Made by a program: the position numbers and the translations under genes
The notes under the pieces: generated by a model
What the model saw: the letters and a program-made list of their open reading frames with translations, nothing else
Databases searched by the model: none
Told to the model about the DNA's origin: nothing
Source of the DNA: Verrucomicrobiota bacterium
GTDB taxonomy: Bacteria; Verrucomicrobiota; Lentisphaeria; Oligosphaerales; Oligosphaeraceae
Length of the DNA stretch: 64,000 nucleotides
Assembly: GCA_019136135.1 (NCBI GenBank)
Contig: JAGVUR010000193.1
Span: 1 to 64,000 of the forward strand
Direction: 5' to 3'
Shown here: piece by piece, positions 34,378-62,023 of the stretch
Layout: each line of letters starts with the position of its first letter
Position numbering within the stretch: position 1 is the stretch's first letter

Positions 34378-34400
34378 TTGAAATGCATCAGTCTTCTGTT

Positions 34401-34659
34401 GCGCCTTTACAAGGCGCCCGGCATGGGGGGCATCCTATCCCCGGGCTGAAGCCCGGGGTTAAGCATGGTCAGGCACCTACGGCGCAAAGTCTTTGGCGCG
34501 GACTAGGCGTCCGCAAGCCACACGGGTGGGCATGGGCAGACACGGACTTGTTAGAAGGATTTTCATAATGCATTGCGCTGCAAGCGCTTAACTATGCTTA
34601 ACCCCAGACTTTAGTCTAGGGTGGCGAACCCACCCGAAGACCGTGCCTTGTAAAGGCAC
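34401..34659. repeat. nested inverted-repeat element (REP/MITE-like)
   Basis: The ends are palindromes that are also inverted copies of each other: GCGCCTTTACAAGGCGC at 34401-34417 and GTGCCTTGTAAAGGCAC at 34643-34659. Inside lie a 12-base inverted pair GGGGTTAAGCAT (34455-34466) and ATGCTTAACCCC (34594-34605). Further hairpins are CCCCGGGC/GCCCGGGG (34439-34458), GCGGAC/GTCCGC (34498-34514), GCGCT/AGCGC (34575-34587) and a CCCCAGACT/AGTCTAGGG pair (34602-34621). It fills much of the 606-base gap 34249-34854. An open frame at 34383-34568 within it is not a gene. Confidence 0.85.
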
Positions 34660-34854
34660 TACAATCATAAGGCGTCAACTGCTTTTTTAGGTTAAATCGT
34701 ACTTAATATATATTCCTCACAACCAATTTGGAAGCGCAATTGCTACAAGAAAAGAAACACAAATCCAAAATGTCCATTGGTTTCCATTCTATACGAATGC
34801 TATATTGCCTGACTTCGATTGGAATCAACCTCAATGCTCATATTTATCACAACC

Positions 34855-37928: not shown

Positions 37929-38627
37929 ATGATGTCAAGGGTATTGAAATTTACGCTGATTGAGTTGTTGGTAGTCATCGCCATCATCGCCATTTTGGCT
38001 GCGATGTTGTTGCCCGCGTTGACGAAGGCGCGTGAAAAGGCGCGTCAGACAAATTGCATCAGCAACTACAAGCAATACGGGCTTGGTTTTGCGATGTACC
38101 TGAGTGACAACGAAGACAAGCTGTTCGGTTGGGGCAAGGCAGACGGCGGCGGCTCTACTTGGAACACAAATCAATATCCTCCCGGCAACACGAACAAGTC
38201 GCCGCAGGTTTTGTTCTGGGGATACACGGGCAATTCCGCAAAGGCGATGATTTGTCCGTCCCGTGAAGTTCCGACAAGCTATGGCTGGTGGGGATTCCAA
38301 AACTACGAGAATGCTGATGAATTGAATCCTGGTATCTCCAGCAAGTATAAAGGCAATACGATTATGCATATGGAGGATTTGATCACAAGACAATTTGCGT
38401 TGTCCGTGGTTATCCAGCCATCGTATGTTGGATTTGCCACGGAAGGGAATCACGTCGCCAGTTGGAATTGGCAGAACATTGACCATCGTGTAGGCACGGG
38501 CGATCGTCGCTGCGTATGGACGCACAATGGTCAGATCAACGTTGTGCACATCGATGGTCACGTTCAGTCCTATCCCCGCGATGGTTCGATGAACAAGTTC
38601 GGTTTCACGAAGACCGCAACACAGTAA
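37929..38627 (+). CDS. prepilin-type protein with H-X9-DG motif (copy 1)
   Basis: The 232-residue protein has a short basic leader and the type IV pilin/pseudopilin helix [20 protein letters not shown] (residues 8-27), with Glu at position 5 of the mature helix. It then continues [13 protein letters not shown]. The C terminus has [12 protein letters not shown], the H-X9-DG signature common in PVC bacteria. Such proteins are processed by a prepilin peptidase and are probably parts of a pseudopilus or surface structure; their function is not established. A near-identical copy follows. Confidence 0.88.
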
Positions 38628-38653
38628 TAGCTGGATCATTGCGAAAATGCAAG

Positions 38654-38704
38654 AAAGCCGTCGGCTTTTTGGGAAAATGCCCGAAAGCCAACGGCTTTTT
38701 TCTT
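38654..38704 (+). terminator. long intrinsic terminator after prepilin copy 1
   Basis: AAAGCCGT pairs with ACGGCTTT, inside which GGCTTT pairs with AAAGCC and GGG with CCC, followed by a T-rich run. It begins 26 bases after the stop codon and sits before the promoter of copy 2, so the two prepilins are separate transcription units. Confidence 0.85.
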
Positions 38705-38728
38705 TTGAGAAAAAACACATTTGCGTCC

Positions 38729-55234: not shown

Positions 55235-56485
55235 ATGAAACAGACTCCTGAAACCGTGGTATTGGTCAATTATGGCTACGAAGACATCCAGAAGTTGGCC
55301 AGAAGCATTCGAGACAACGGAATCTATACGATGGTGATGCCGTACACCGTCCCTGTGGAGAGGATTGAAGCTGAGGCTCCAATTGGGTTGATCGAGTGCT
55401 ATGACGAGAAGCCCTTGGCGGAGCTGGGACGCTTTGCCAGCCTGGGATTGCCGACGGCGCTTGTCTCGAGCGATGCCGACGTGTCGGCGCTGGTATCGTT
55501 TTGCAAGGAGGAGTGCGGTTGCACCTGTAGCTGGAAGTTGGAGACCTTCATTGACGAGGCTGTCAATGAGATTCGCGAGCAGGTTGGTGACGGTCGCGTT
55601 GTATTGGGTTTGTCCGGCGGCGTTGATTCATCCGTGGTTGCCGCATTGATTCACAAGGCTATCGGCGACCATTTGACCTGCGTGTTCGTCAACAATGGCC
55701 TGTTGCGCAAGAACGAACCTGAATTGGTGCAGGATATTTTCCAGCGCAATTTCAAGATGAATCTGTGCTATGTTGACGCCTCGGAGCGCTTTTTGGACAA
55801 GTTGGCCGGGATTGATGATCCTGAGCAGAAGCGCAAGGTCATCGGCAAGGAATTCATCGAGGTCTTTGCTGAAGCGGCTCGCAAGACCGGTGCCGAGTTC
55901 CTGGGACAAGGGACGATTTATCCGGACATCCTGGAAAGCATACCGTTGGACGGAAATCCTGCCGGAATAATCAAGAGCCACCACAATGTCGGGGGCTTGC
56001 CGAAGGATTTGAAGTTCAAGTTGGTTGAGCCGGTGGCTCGCCTGTTCAAGGACGAGGTCCGCAAGGTCGGTCGCCTGCTTGGTTTGCCTTCCGAGATGAT
56101 CGACCGCCATCCGTTCCCCGGTCCGTCCCTGGGCGTACGCCACTTGGGAGCCATTGCCCGCAATACCTTGGCGATGTTGCGTGAGGCGGACGCGATTGTG
56201 ACTGAGGAATTGATCAAGTCGGGTTGGTACCACAAGACCTGGCAGGCGCTCGCGGTTTTCGTTCCCGTCAAGTCAACGGGAATCAAGAATGGCCGAAGGA
56301 GCTACGACTACGTCATTGCGATTCGTGCCGTCAACAGCGTGGATGCGATGACGGCGGAAATCGTACGCTTGCCCTGGGAGCTTCTGGAGACGATGGCCGC
56401 GCGAATCACTAGCGAGGTCGATGGAATCAACCGTGTCGTCTATGACATCACGGGCAAGCCGCCGGCGACCATCGAGTGGGAGTGA
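55235..56485 (+). CDS. guaA: GMP synthase with vestigial glutamine amidotransferase domain
   Basis: The 416-residue protein has an intact ATP-pyrophosphatase domain (SGGVDSS at residues 127-133; LAQGTIYPD-like FLGQGTIYPDILES; PFPGPSLGVRHLG; C-terminal dimer domain ending PPATIEWE). The N-terminal 95 residues retain only the start of a class I amidotransferase (VVLVNYGYEDIQKLARSIRDNG). The region with the catalytic Cys, His and Glu is missing: usual length is about 515-525. It must use free ammonia or a separate glutaminase subunit. AAGGGAC lies before the ATG. Confidence 0.93.
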   Translation: MKQTPETVVLVNYGYEDIQKLARSIRDNGIYTMVMPYTVPVERIEAEAPIGLIECYDEKPLAELGRFASLGLPTALVSSDADVSALVSFCKEECGCTCSWKLETFIDEAVNEIREQVGDGRVVLGLSGGVDSSVVAALIHKAIGDHLTCVFVNNGLLRKNEPELVQDIFQRNFKMNLCYVDASERFLDKLAGIDDPEQKRKVIGKEFIEVFAEAARKTGAEFLGQGTIYPDILESIPLDGNPAGIIKSHHNVGGLPKDLKFKLVEPVARLFKDEVRKVGRLLGLPSEMIDRHPFPGPSLGVRHLGAIARNTLAMLREADAIVTEELIKSGWYHKTWQALAVFVPVKSTGIKNGRRSYDYVIAIRAVNSVDAMTAEIVRLPWELLETMAARITSEVDGINRVVYDITGKPPATIEWE

Positions 56486-56582
56486 AATGGAAAGGATGTA
56501 ATGCATGGCGGATAAAGCTACAGACAAGCGCCGCTTCGTAAAATCTCACAGTGTAAAGCTCGATGGTGAGTTTGTTTAGTGG

Positions 56583-56681
56583 ATGTCTGAGATTAAGCAG
56601 GGATTTCGTAATTCACAGATAAAAGCTTCGGTTAAGGTGAATTCAGAACAATTGCTTTTCAACTGGCAACAATGTATGTGA
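56583..56681 (+). pseudogene. remnant of a DUF1016 (YhcG/PDDEXK) nuclease gene
   Basis: The 32 residues MSEIKQGFRNSQIKASVKV, NSEQLLFNWQ match the N-terminal helix pattern of YhcG/DUF1016 proteins (EIKQxxxxSQIKAAVxVNxELLxFYW), after which the frame stops. A 24-codon open frame at 56505-56579 just upstream has no recognisable match. The remnant marks the left edge of a block of genes unlike their neighbours. The whole gap 56486-56841 holds nothing else. Confidence 0.55.
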
Positions 56682-56841
56682 CATGCCCATTTAAGGAGCG
56701 TAAAGTGTTCGCGGATGGGACGTAGCCGAAGAACGAAATGTAAACCATGCGATAGCTAACCACTTCCACTGTTAACTCGTATTTTGTTCTTAAGTTTTTT
56801 CATTTTTAGGAGATTTTGCCTTTAAAACACTTAAACCCAAA

Positions 56842-58200
56842 ATGCTTTTGCTTGCCGTCATCGTAGGCCTCTTGCTTTTTTTACTCAATCCCCTTGGTTT
56901 AAATTGGAAAAGCGCATTTTTATTTGCCTCGTTGGTGATGACTATCGTTCTTTGGGCAACAGAAGCTGTACACAAGTCATGGTCAAGCATCTATCTTTTG
57001 CTTGTGTTCATCCTTTTCGGGAAGACTTCTCCTCTTGGAGTGGTTAGCTTTGCCTGGTCGAACACAATGCTTCTGATCATCATGACTCAGATTCTATCTG
57101 TAGGCATGATGAAATCAGGGATCATTGACGGTCCTGTAGAAAATCTCATGAGAAAGACTTCAGACAAGCTTTTTCTCACGATGCTTTTGCCCTACCTCTT
57201 AGGCGTGGCACTGATCTTTATCATGCCTCAAGCCTTTTCCAGGGTCTTAATCCTCGGCAGTATTTACGATTCCATATTGAAAGCAGAAAATGACGAAGAA
57301 ACTCGAGCCAAGCAAGCCTTGATCTTCAATGCTTTTTTAGGAGTAACCGTTACCTACATGATGTTTCCTGGCGGAGACATCGTTCTCAATCATGCTGCCA
57401 TCAGCTTTTCCGGTCCCGAAGCTCAAAAAACCTTGACCTTTTGGAATTGGGCTAAATGGATGGTGGTGCCTACGGTCGTTACATCGGCTGTCGTGCTGGT
57501 CCTGACGCGATTTTTGTTTGCAAAGGACTTTGCGGGCTACCATACCGGAATGATTGTCGAAAAAACAAAGGCGGACAAAATTCTTCCTAGGGGCAAAAAG
57601 ATTTTGACGATTTTGACCATGGCTGTTATTATCGTCTTTTGGATGACGGAAAGCTTGCACGGCATTGCTCCTTGGATACCAACCCTGGCAGGCTTATTGG
57701 TAATGACAGGCTTAGGCTTGCTGAGGGAAAAAGATTTTAAAACCATTAATATTCATTTCCTCCTATTCTTGACGACCGCTTTCTCCATTGGTAAAGTTTT
57801 GGGTCAAGCCGGGATTACCGAAGTGATTTTCCTCAACTTGAAAAAACTGATGCCGGTCGGAAATCCAGTGCTTTATTTGCCGATCATGGCTATATTGACC
57901 ATGATGCTGCATATGTGCATCGGCTCCAGTGTGGCAACCATGTCCGTGGTGCTTCCGATTTTCGTGCCGATGGCGGTTGCAAACGGCTTTCCACCACAGA
58001 TGGTCACTCTGATTGTCTATATTATGGTCAATATCCATTTCTTTTTCCCGTTTCACCATGCAACTCTTTTGATCGGGGCAGGAAAGAATTACTATGAGGA
58101 CAGATTTATGCTGAAGACAGGGGTTGCGATGACCTTTGTCAGTCTATTGTTGGTCTTTTTACTATACCTCCCATGGTGGAAATTCATTGGATTGAAATAA
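56842..58200 (+). CDS. DASS/SLC13-type anion permease, start uncertain
   Basis: The 452-residue protein has about twelve membrane helices and DASS blocks such as IGSSVATMSVVLPIFVPMA near residue 356 and MMFPGGDIVLNHA near 173; relatives import dicarboxylates or sulfate with Na+. The ATG at 56842 has no ribosome-binding site nearby. The frame is open back to 56794, with FKTLKPK directly before Met, like the usual N-terminal region of such permeases. The true N terminus may therefore be lost. Codons differ from those of the neighbouring guaA. Confidence 0.78.
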   Translation: MLLLAVIVGLLLFLLNPLGLNWKSAFLFASLVMTIVLWATEAVHKSWSSIYLLLVFILFGKTSPLGVVSFAWSNTMLLIIMTQILSVGMMKSGIIDGPVENLMRKTSDKLFLTMLLPYLLGVALIFIMPQAFSRVLILGSIYDSILKAENDEETRAKQALIFNAFLGVTVTYMMFPGGDIVLNHAAISFSGPEAQKTLTFWNWAKWMVVPTVVTSAVVLVLTRFLFAKDFAGYHTGMIVEKTKADKILPRGKKILTILTMAVIIVFWMTESLHGIAPWIPTLAGLLVMTGLGLLREKDFKTINIHFLLFLTTAFSIGKVLGQAGITEVIFLNLKKLMPVGNPVLYLPIMAILTMMLHMCIGSSVATMSVVLPIFVPMAVANGFPPQMVTLIVYIMVNIHFFFPFHHATLLIGAGKNYYEDRFMLKTGVAMTFVSLLLVFLLYLPWWKFIGLK

Positions 58201-58211
58201 GGAGCAATACC

Positions 58212-59198
58212 ATGCACAGAATTTTTAAGTACAACGACAAGATTTTTAACAGTTCCGATGGAACGATTGTTTGCGGCATCGTCAATGTCACCCCGGATTC
58301 GTTTTCCGACGGCGGGCGTTGGTTTTCAACCGAAAAGGCCGTGGCCCATGCCCTGGAGTTGATCGATCAAGGGGCGGGAATGCTGGATATCGGAGGTGAA
58401 TCCACCAGGCCCGGCAGCACACCGGTTGATCCTCAGGAGGAAATCGACCGAATCGTACCGGTAATCCGTGAATTGAAAAAACGCACTGATGTGCCCCTGT
58501 CGATTGATACCTGGAAGGCGTCTGTGGCCAAGGCGACTATTGAAGCAGGAGCGGATATCATCAATGACATTACAGGCTTCTTGGGGGATCCTGGCATGGC
58601 GAAAGTTGTCGGCAACTCAAGGGTCGGAGCGATCTTGATGTTCAATCCTGTCATATCAAGGCCTGATCATCCGGGATCGAAAATCTTTCCTTCCTTCGGG
58701 GGCGAAGGAGTATTTAGCGAAGAAGAGATCGAAAGAATGAATGCTTTGCCGATACAAGAATCCATGTGCTACTACCTGAGGCGTTGCATCAAGGTGGCCC
58801 ATGAGGGTGGAGTGGAAGATGAACGAATCATGTTGGACCCGGGTATCGGTTTCGGCTTGACCAAGAGGGAGAACCTTTTATTGATCAAAGATCTTCACGT
58901 TTTAAGAGATATGGGTTATTGTACCTTTGTGGGAGTATCCAGAAAGAGATTCATAGTCAACATCCTGGAGGGCGCCGGCTTCAATATGGATCCGGAAACT
59001 GAGGAAGGCCATGAAAACCGAGACCTGGGCTCTGCCGCTCTTACGGCTATTTCCACCATGCTGGGAGCGGATGTCATTAGAGTCCATACCATTTTGCATC
59101 ATAGGATGCATTCGGAAATAGGAAATGCAGTGCGTTTCGCCGAAGCAATGGAAGACACTCATTTGAAACAGTATGGTGCCAAAAAAAGTAGCCAATGA
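58212..59198 (+). CDS. folP: dihydropteroate synthase (variant)
   Basis: The 328-residue protein has the DHPS signature blocks: NVTPDSFSDGGRW (about 25-37), LDIGGESTRPGSTPVDPQEEI, SIDTWKASVA, IINDITG, DPGIGFGLT, VGVSRKRF and IRVHTI. Pterin-pocket residues (Asn, Asp, Lys, Arg, His of the family) are present. A longer insert (MFNPVISRPDHPGSKIFPSFGG, about 150-172) replaces the usual MHMxGxPxxMQ loop. AAGGAG precedes the ATG at 58212. It overlaps the next gene by 4 bases; no other folate genes are nearby. Confidence 0.85.
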   Translation: MHRIFKYNDKIFNSSDGTIVCGIVNVTPDSFSDGGRWFSTEKAVAHALELIDQGAGMLDIGGESTRPGSTPVDPQEEIDRIVPVIRELKKRTDVPLSIDTWKASVAKATIEAGADIINDITGFLGDPGMAKVVGNSRVGAILMFNPVISRPDHPGSKIFPSFGGEGVFSEEEIERMNALPIQESMCYYLRRCIKVAHEGGVEDERIMLDPGIGFGLTKRENLLLIKDLHVLRDMGYCTFVGVSRKRFIVNILEGAGFNMDPETEEGHENRDLGSAALTAISTMLGADVIRVHTILHHRMHSEIGNAVRFAEAMEDTHLKQYGAKKSSQ

Positions 59199-60262
59199 AA
59201 CAACTATATCATGAAAAACTAAAGACCGTGGTCGTGGCAAGTGGAACAGAAAACGATCCTCTTGTCCTTGAAGGCATAGTCAGAAAGCTGTCCGACAGCA
59301 GCTTGTTTTTGAGTTGGACAGGCGGGGGCAATACGGAACCTCATGTCAGAAATGTAACCAGATATAGCAAGAGTTACGACGGAGGGAATACCTGGGACAG
59401 CGAAAAAATACTGTTTTCCCATCCGAACAAAGGAATATTTACCCCGGCTTTGTTTGTCGATGGCGATCATTTGTATGCCTTCCCAAATTCATATTACAAT
59501 CATACCACATTCGCACAGGATATGCAGAGTTATATCAGTGTAAGCACGGATTATGGCAAGAGCTTTTCGCCGCCGGCTTCCTTTAAAGGCTGTATTAACA
59601 ATATCCATATAAAGTGCACTGAAAAACTTGGCGACAAATGGTTGTTTGCCTGTTCGTGGTACGAAATCGATGGTACAAACTGGGCACCGCCAATGGAAGG
59701 CAAGGAATGTATTGTCGCTGGAACGGAGATAAAGCCTACAAGCGGTCAGTATTGGGCTTGGGTCACAAGCAACCATACGGAATACTCCGGGGTATTGATT
59801 TCCGAAGACAAAGGTGAAAGTTGGCGTCTTCACGGAAGAATCGGCCATAAAGGCAGAAACTTTGTCGAACCGATGTTCACATTCCTTTCAGACGGTACAA
59901 TCGTAATGTTCTTGCGAACCAACATACCGTACCTGTTCGAAAGCCGATCCTATGACGGAGGCTTGACCTGGAGCGAAGCGGTGCAGACAAACATCCCATC
60001 GGCAATCACAAAGGTTAAATTGCTGAAAGACAGCCACGGCACAATTTACCTGCTCCACAATCCCAATCCAAAAGGCAGGCATCCCCTTGCACTCTGGATT
60101 AGCGACGACGATATGCAAACATGGTCGAAAAAGATTGAACTTGTTAACGATGACAGCAGACCCTTATGCTATCCTGATGGTTTCATTGATGAAACGAACG
60201 GGAAATTATGTTTTTCATGGGAGGATAGGCGGCAAATCTATTATTCCGAGTTTACTTTATAA
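59195..60262 (+). CDS. sialidase-like BNR-repeat protein
   Basis: The 355-residue protein is a predicted beta-propeller with five Asp-box-like repeats: SYDGGNTWDS, STDYGKSFSP, SEDKGESWRL, SYDGGLTWSE and SDDDMQTWSK. There is no signal peptide, so it acts in the cytoplasm unless exported otherwise. The sialidase Arg triad cannot be assigned from sequence alone. Translational coupling (ATGA) to the folP-like gene suggests a shared pathway with the permease. Its 3' end overlaps the next, convergent gene by 22 bases. Confidence 0.8.
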   Translation: MKQLYHEKLKTVVVASGTENDPLVLEGIVRKLSDSSLFLSWTGGGNTEPHVRNVTRYSKSYDGGNTWDSEKILFSHPNKGIFTPALFVDGDHLYAFPNSYYNHTTFAQDMQSYISVSTDYGKSFSPPASFKGCINNIHIKCTEKLGDKWLFACSWYEIDGTNWAPPMEGKECIVAGTEIKPTSGQYWAWVTSNHTEYSGVLISEDKGESWRLHGRIGHKGRNFVEPMFTFLSDGTIVMFLRTNIPYLFESRSYDGGLTWSEAVQTNIPSAITKVKLLKDSHGTIYLLHNPNPKGRHPLALWISDDDMQTWSKKIELVNDDSRPLCYPDGFIDETNGKLCFSWEDRRQIYYSEFTL

Positions 60263-60696
60263 GGTAAGGAGCTGTTCTCGGCATCAACCATTTTTTCCCA
60301 AAAAGGCAATAATAGCTTTGTAAAATCCTCTTCAAGTTTATCGGTAATGGCCAATAATATTTTTAGCGAATTATAAACTAGGCATGCTTGTGTTTTATTC
60401 AAAGTTGAAAAAAAGCTGTTTGATAAACTATCCACTTGCTGGATTCCTGTATTTGCAGGATATAGTCCGTACAAGAAAACATCTAAATATGTTAAAGTAA
60501 TGTCGTCATGTGGTTTGGAAAGTGAATAAAACAAGACACTGAAAATCGTTTGGATTCGATCTTCATCAACCAATGATACACAGTCACAAAACATAGAAGT
60601 TATGTAGTCGCTGTCCATGGTTAAAATAGCTTTGCAATTTGGCTCATGCTTTTTTAAGAGTTCCAGGCAATTAAGAAATTCATTTGCTTCTTTCAT
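60241..60696 (-). CDS. hypothetical protein, orphan
   Basis: The 151-residue protein is acidic and helical with several Cys and no motif I recognise. It has no signal peptide or membrane helix. There is no strong ribosome-binding site before the ATG. A broken small frame lies 15 bases upstream on the same strand. It is A/T-rich compared with the chromosome and its 3' end overlaps the sialidase-like gene. It belongs to the acquired-looking block. Whether it is expressed is unclear. Confidence 0.4.
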   Translation of the reverse strand: MKEANEFLNCLELLKKHEPNCKAILTMDSDYITSMFCDCVSLVDEDRIQTIFSVLFYSLSKPHDDITLTYLDVFLYGLYPANTGIQQVDSLSNSFFSTLNKTQACLVYNSLKILLAITDKLEEDFTKLLLPFWEKMVDAENSSLPYKVNSE

Positions 60697-60711
60697 ATTG
60701 AACTGCTTTGT

Positions 60712-60885
60712 TTAGTATGGTCGTCCAACCACGAACTTATCGAGTCCTTTTCTCTGCTGAACTGTTTTCTTCAAGCACGCGACCTTTTCATAATCAGTCT
60801 ATCCGTCAGCAGAGGAAATGTAATTTTCAACCTTAAAAATACAATCTGAAAATGTCGTTATATTTTCAAGAGATATCGTCCTCAT
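60712..60885 (-). pseudogene. small open frame interrupted by an in-frame TAG
   Basis: On the minus strand an ATG at 60885 opens 28 codons (MRTISLENITTFSDCIFKVE, continuing), then TAG at 60801-60799, then 28 further codons (TDYEKVACLKKTV, ending FVVGRPY) to TAA at 60714-60712. The composition on both sides of the TAG looks like one coding frame. The rest of the gap, 60886-61150, has short frames such as one ending KDAESHTMLIEA, but nothing I can name. It is probably a decayed gene. Confidence 0.4.
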
Positions 60886-61150
60886 GAGAGGATACTGTCG
60901 TAACTACGCCTCAATAAGCATCGTATGAGATTCGGCGTCCTTGGCGCTGTTTTTCAAGGAAGTGGACTTGTAGGAAACATTTGGTTGAGTAGATTATAAA
61001 AGTGCATATGGTGTCCTTCCCTGGGCACTGGGGATGCAAAATCGGGAATTCATAAGTAGAAAGGCACAAAGAGTTAGGAGCTGTTCTAAAATTAAGGCAA
61101 CAGTTCCTTAGTCGAAAGCAGATTGTCGTCAACAGACAAAGGAGCGTATT

Positions 61151-62023
61151 ATGTTTATTGACATTCATGTGCATTTTCGTAGTATTCCGGGATTTTCGCG
61201 CGGTGGCAAGCAAGCATATGCAACACCGGAGCAGCTTTTGGAGCGTTACGCCGCCATCAAGGTAGAGCGCGCCGTGGTTTTGCCCGGTGTGAATCCCGAG
61301 TGTTCGCATACGCCGCAATCCAATGAAGAAGTGCTGGAGGTGGCAAAAAAACATCCCTTGTTCATACCCTTTTGCAATGTGGATCCTCGTGCCTTGACGA
61401 ATAACATCAGGGCGCCGTTCCATGATATCTTCAGCTTCTATAAAGACCGAGGCTGTAAAGGGATTGGCGAGGTCTGCGCTAACTTGCATTTCCTCGATCC
61501 GCTGGTGCAGAACATGTTTAAGGGTGCAGAGTCTGCCGGACTGCCGCTGACCTTTCATATTTCCCCAACCATAGGAGACAACTACGGCCTGTTCGACTAT
61601 GCGGGGCTAATTCAGCTGGAGACTTGCTTGCAGCGCTTCCCTAACTTGAAGTTCTTCGGGCACTCTCAGGCTTTTTGGGCCGAAATGGCGCCGCTGAAGC
61701 ATTTTTCTGATCGCTGGGGCTATCCGAAGTATGCGATAGAAGAGGAGGGCAGACTGCCGAAGTTGATGCGCAAGTATGGCAATCTCTATGGCGACCTTTC
61801 TGCCCATAGTGGCTGCAATGCCCTGACTAGGGACAGGGCCTATAGCATCAAGTTCCTCAATGAGTTCCAGGACAGGCTCTTCTTCGGCACCGACATCTGT
61901 GCCCCGGATACGCCCACGCCACTGGTGGACTACCTGCTGGAGCTGCGTAACAACGCCGAGATCTCTGAAGCCGTCTTCCAAAAGGTTGCCAGGGAAAATG
62001 CGATACGCGTGCTGCAACTATAA
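61151..62023 (+). CDS. amidohydrolase-superfamily protein (Amidohydro_2 type)
   Basis: The 290-residue protein is a TIM barrel with the metal motif DIHVHF (His6, His8), LTFHIS (about 138), FFGHSQAFWAEMA (about 174) and FGTDICAPD (about 243). Enzymes of this type are metal-dependent hydrolases or decarboxylases. GGAGCG precedes the ATG. The gene stands alone between decayed DNA and the convergent MBL-SGNH gene. The substrate cannot be told. Confidence 0.88.
   Translation: MFIDIHVHFRSIPGFSRGGKQAYATPEQLLERYAAIKVERAVVLPGVNPECSHTPQSNEEVLEVAKKHPLFIPFCNVDPRALTNNIRAPFHDIFSFYKDRGCKGIGEVCANLHFLDPLVQNMFKGAESAGLPLTFHISPTIGDNYGLFDYAGLIQLETCLQRFPNLKFFGHSQAFWAEMAPLKHFSDRWGYPKYAIEEEGRLPKLMRKYGNLYGDLSAHSGCNALTRDRAYSIKFLNEFQDRLFFGTDICAPDTPTPLVDYLLELRNNAEISEAVFQKVARENAIRVLQL

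Follow-up and report, generated by a model that had tools for sequence, protein, structure and literature searches.

Dihydropteroate synthase (DHPS, encoded by folP), against which the oldest synthetic antibacterials are directed, is a housekeeping enzyme whose gene is generally taken to be inherited vertically. In a Lentisphaeria genome, folP lies in an acquired-looking block, coupled to a permease gene and a sialidase-like gene, which raises the question of whether these genes form a pathway of their own or whether the block has a simpler history. The window analysed here, the whole stretch of 64,000 nucleotides of contig JAGVUR010000193.1, belongs to a draft assembly of 4.74 Mb in 217 contigs that is 88% complete (G000). 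It was compared with the sister genome UBA1407 (G003; relevant contig DBPZ01000029), with three congeners (G001, G002 and G004) and with two species of another genus of the same family (G007 and G017). Our reading is that the native folP of this lineage has very probably undergone xenologous displacement by a folP of Bacillota type, which arrived with passenger genes. The features of the locus, in window coordinates, are the following.

55235-56485, plus strand: guaA, the native left neighbour, colinear with UBA1407 at 91% (nucleotide level) up to 56485.
56504-56682, plus strand: decayed frame with an in-frame TAG, between guaA and the permease gene, DUF1016-like by eye only.
56671-56686, plus strand: core AATGTATGTGACATGC of a lineage-specific dispersed repeat, on the left margin of the foreign block.
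56.7-60.7 kb: low-GC3 block of four genes (permease, folP, GH33-like propeller, orf151) between guaA and the amidohydrolase gene.
56842-58200, plus strand: divergent DASS/SLC13-type permease (PF00939, 66 bits; TIGR00785, 88.7 bits).
58212-59198, plus strand: folP, an acquired gene for a 328-residue dihydropteroate synthase of Streptococcus pneumoniae type (PF00809, 235 bits; TIGR01496, 244.6 bits).
59195-60262, plus strand: GH33-like six-bladed propeller (BNR_2; PF13088, 101 bits), with an ATGA overlap with folP.
60241-60696, minus strand: orf151, a convergent orphan gene at the right end of the foreign block, GC3 0.33.
61151-62023, plus strand: Amidohydro_2 gene of native type, outside the acquired block, GC3 0.64, with genomes of the genus and family having several relatives each.

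An earlier sequence-only reading had proposed that base and codon use shift at this block, and this is borne out, as GC3 falls to 0.54 in the permease gene and folP, 0.50 in the propeller gene and 0.33 in orf151, against 0.59-0.76 in 43 of the 44 other window ORFs of at least 150 codons (0.46 in the remaining one). That remaining ORF, at window 37938-38720 on the minus strand, also has atypical codon use. The lowest-GC 1-kb bin of the whole window is found at 60-61 kb (GC 0.378). A foreign segment is therefore supported, but its extent is 56.7-60.7 kb and does not reach 62.0 kb as had been proposed; the right boundary is placed at about 60.7 kb because the amidohydrolase gene starting at 61151 is host-like, both in composition and in its many genus and family relatives. 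As to the decayed frames that had been described, a disrupted frame with an internal TAG was recovered at 56504-56682, and a gene-free stretch of about 450 bp lies at 60.70-61.15 kb. The disrupted frame, proposed to be a DUF1016 remnant, gave no Pfam match at E<=1. No RNA families were detected within 55-64 kb, and promoter-like sites were no more frequent than expected by chance. For orf151, no Pfam family scored above its cut-off; in UBA1407 this gene is split by a MITE-like insert of about 310 bp (L013:11836-12150) with an AAATTCA duplication and terminal inverted repeats TTTTGGGGGT / ACCCCCAAAA.

The start of folP was set at ATG 58212, preceded by AGGAG, because this start is common to all relatives. 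The product scores above the cut-offs of PF00809 and of the DHPS equivalog TIGR01496 (244.6 vs 162.6 bits for the latter), and the DHPS catalytic residues, N25, D59, D99, N118, D209, K245, R290 and H292, are invariant in an alignment of this protein with the S. pneumoniae, Bacillus subtilis and native enzymes. Its best solved relative is the DHPS of S. pneumoniae (PDB 2vef; 370 bits over the full length, 55% identity), every other solved DHPS scoring at most 186 bits. The two proteins have in common an insert of about 25 residues after MFNPV and another of about 10 residues after NILE, both of which are missing from the native Lentisphaeria and B. subtilis enzymes in the alignment. A maximum-likelihood tree, based on 13 sequences only and with several long branches, places the four block-type FolP proteins together with S. 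pneumoniae on one side of a branch supported at 100/99. In a set of 388 genomes spanning the phylum, this type is carried by four, which belong to two of the 198 genera sampled. Judged by its sequence, FolP is an ordinary DHPS that took over the housekeeping step, and we infer that it catalyzes this step in vivo.

The native folP site has the order phoH-folP-cdaA-ybbR and is intact in G001, G002 and G004, all of which are without the foreign folP. In G000 and UBA1407, phoH and cdaA adjoin and folP is missing; given that their spacers are alignable and have an identical junction, the loss predates the split of these two genomes. In G007 and G017, the native gene is reduced to a 65-codon N-terminal remnant between phoH and cdaA. 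The genomes that lost the native folP and those that carry the foreign one are the same four of the seven studied closely, and a third member of the second genus (G024, 64% complete) showed neither gene. A profile search of G000 returned the block folP as its sole folP, with one further match that is MetH-like; apart from the block-type gene, profile searching detected no intact folP in the four carriers. Since all compared genomes are draft assemblies, a second folP may lie in an assembly gap of G000; the native locus is nevertheless assembled and empty in both G000 and UBA1407. The gene for the next enzyme upstream, folK, is retained in all four carriers, which implies that their pathway still requires a DHPS.

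It could be argued that the foreign FolP was retained as a Sul-like, drug-insensitive DHPS conferring sulfonamide resistance, since such resistance is a known reason for the spread of mobile DHPS genes (PMC6335563, PMC10328974) and folP was replaced more than once in this family. We regard this explanation as unlikely, given that FolP scores 75-162 bits against curated Sul1-4 cut-offs of 475-600 and that its LDPGIGFGLT segment, compared with other DHPS, is without the Phe-Gly insertion found after the catalytic Asp in Sul1-3 (PMC10328974). Moreover, the loop residues equivalent to F17, S18 and T51 of Staphylococcus aureus are of the susceptible type and the loop-2 region has the same length as in S. 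pneumoniae 2vef. On the Sul1-4 scores and the missing insertion, a Sul-type resistance gene was rejected. A donor search gave nothing close in viral contigs, plasmids or phages; the donor phylum was probably Bacillota, as S. pneumoniae, the one relative pointing there, and the low GC3 suggest.

The sequence-only reading had instead suggested a possible new catabolic or salvage unit of three tightly coupled genes; in such a unit, the pterin enzyme and the glycosidase would act on an anionic compound brought in by the permease. As regards the coupling, the order permease, folP, propeller on the plus strand and the ATGA overlap of the last two at 59195-59198 hold, but the permease gene and folP do not overlap and, with the start at ATG 58212, are separated by 11 nt. 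The permease scores above the PF00939 cut-off (66 vs 27 bits) and below that of TIGR00785 (88.7 vs 198.6 bits), and the canonical SNT motifs of DASS/SLC13 proteins were not seen in it by eye. Contrary to what had been suspected, its membrane domain is not truncated at the N terminus: residues 3-450 align to positions 9-470 of the 472 in PF00939. This gene has no relatives at E<=1e-20 in the 388 phylum genomes and is intact in G000 only; UBA1407 retains its 3' tail, the last 30 bases or so, before folP, and G007 and G017 have folP without it.

The propeller protein has an AlphaFold model with a pLDDT of 80.5, for which the Foldseek matches are GH33 sialidases (TM 0.77). Its residues R30, E225, R241, R295 and Y326 are conserved, corresponding to the Arg triad, Glu and Tyr of GH33 sialidases, and the Glu-16-Arg-Arg-Tyr spacing is GH33-like. 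By eye, no acid/base Asp of GH33 was seen at the expected site, E48 being the nearest residue, and no signal peptide was evident. The model match and the spacing suggest that the protein may be a working cytoplasmic glycosidase; it may also serve a purpose of its own, given a dN/dS of about 0.06 in the G000-UBA1407 comparison. The block-type gene occurs in these two genomes only, with no match in the second genus. Weaker relatives (30-44% identity) were found in 15 phylum genomes that are without the block FolP type, which counts against a necessary link between FolP and the propeller.

A functional unit would agree with the close gene spacing and the overlap, with the GH33-like fold and residues of the propeller, and with the maintenance of the folP-propeller pair in G000 and UBA1407 at low dN/dS. 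It is nonetheless highly improbable, because no DHPS other than FolP was found in the genome and FolP itself is an ordinary one, and because the permease and the propeller were not retained alongside folP across the carriers. The same three genes together were found in no other genome; part of what the sequence-only reading had itself named as evidence against the unit was thus observed, namely its absence elsewhere and the ordinary role of its key gene, folP. We likewise give very little credence to a narrower version in which the folP and sialidase-like genes would be a pair selected as a functional unit: a glycosylated pterin or folate would be the substrate of the cytoplasmic GH33-like protein, and through that link the two genes would have moved together.

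Turning back to the displacement of the native folP, the spread of the foreign gene within the family can be followed in its divergence. Between G000 and G007 or G017, folP shows a dS of 0.65-0.72 and a dN of about 0.07, whereas phoH, cdaA, ybbR, folK and guaA of the same genera are near or beyond synonymous saturation (dN 0.33-0.98), which makes it implausible that folP descends from the ancestor that these genera share. In the second genus, folP has a GC3 of 0.41-0.42 against 0.64-0.79 in the host genes compared, and homology is limited to the gene and about 25 bp upstream of it. The gene is present in all four carriers and under purifying selection. Colinearity of G000 and UBA1407 extends over folP, the propeller gene and orf151 and continues through the right flank to position 64954 of the window contig; folP was accordingly inherited vertically within this pair. 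A recent transfer between the two had been suggested by their 97.5% identical folP-propeller segment and differing left flank; this idea was abandoned, as the right flank is colinear and dS lies at the low end of the background. Although this colinearity shows vertical descent within the pair, descent of the foreign FolP from the family ancestor, with losses elsewhere and no transfer between groups, is scarcely credible in view of the unsaturated dS, the foreign GC3 and the restriction to two of the 198 phylum genera sampled.

The left edge of the block differs between the two sister genomes. Synteny with UBA1407 stops exactly at the guaA stop codon, with nothing in common beyond it on that side. 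The repeat core AATGTATGTGACATGC has 11 exact copies in G000 and four in UBA1407, and none in the other four of the six genomes tested (G001, G004, G007 and G017). It also occurs in UBA1407 at the left edge of a segment with a glycerophosphodiester phosphodiesterase gene, and recombination may have taken place at it. That gene lies to the left of folP in UBA1407 (L013:8243-9097, GC3 0.57) and has no counterpart in the window. The dispersed intergenic repeat itself, TTTCGTACTCAAAATGTATGTGACATGCCCCTGAGTTCGGCATT, was noted at window 56671-56686, at 64889-64920 of the window contig (beyond the window) and at L013:8135-8166; short repeats of GGACTGGGAC type often come after it.

UBA1407 also has a 36-bp fragment resembling the guaA 3' end (83%; L013:9249-9284) before the permease tail and folP, its own guaA being located away from its folP. 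This fragment raised the possibility that the block had integrated at the 3' end of guaA, but an integrase gene was not seen nearby. An empty insertion site was not found in G001, G002 or G004, where the region downstream of guaA differs in each genome and no colinear right flank was found. A second guaA gene, a paralogue at 53% identity (G001:C60, G002:C4, G004:C157), is present in these native-folP congeners and was undetected in G000 and UBA1407. Separately, an inverted-repeat element is found at window 34382-34663, and copies of it adjoin the foreign folP in G007 and G017 (L015:1283-1344, L015:7177-7284, L014:2478-2508).

Taken as a sequence of events, a segment with the permease, DHPS and sialidase-like genes of another bacterium would have entered the common ancestor of G000 and UBA1407. 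The foreign FolP would have taken over from the native enzyme in making 7,8-dihydropteroate from pABA and hydroxymethyl-dihydropterin pyrophosphate; loss of the native gene from between phoH and cdaA would have followed, gain before loss being the order that we infer. A separate replacement of like kind would have occurred in the second genus. The permease, the propeller and orf151 would be passengers at differing stages of loss, folP alone having been kept in all four genomes. The displacement is based on the enzyme class assigned by sequence, the foreign relationship, the match between native loss and carriers, the retention of folK and purifying selection.

The locus is a clean case of an already known process. 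A housekeeping DHPS has been exchanged for a distantly related type in both genera, the old gene being deleted in one and a fossil in the other, so that through these loci it becomes possible to test in what order, and at what cost, an essential drug-target gene is replaced. The case also illustrates that the genes of an acquired block may be spaced as in an operon without sharing a pathway.

Among known systems, the propeller resembles the GH33 sialidase of Micromonospora viridifaciens (1eus) in its six-bladed fold (TM 0.77) but differs from it in having 16% identity and neither an evident acid/base Asp nor a signal peptide. The block FolP matches S. pneumoniae DHPS (2vef/2veg) in the two inserts, the catalytic residues and the GFGLTK loop, but has RVHT in place of RVHD. 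Its gene adjoins a permease and a sialidase-like gene in a Lentisphaeria host, whereas the S. pneumoniae gene sits in a folate operon. Like the mobile Sul1-4 genes, the block folP is a DHPS gene that moved between bacterial groups, but it replaces the native gene while Sul genes add to it. The closest parallel is xenologous gene displacement, an established term (e.g., PMC1274311), with a foreign homologue resident and the native orthologue gone from its conserved site; what differs here is that, across two genera, the native gene has been caught in both states, cleanly deleted and reduced to a remnant.
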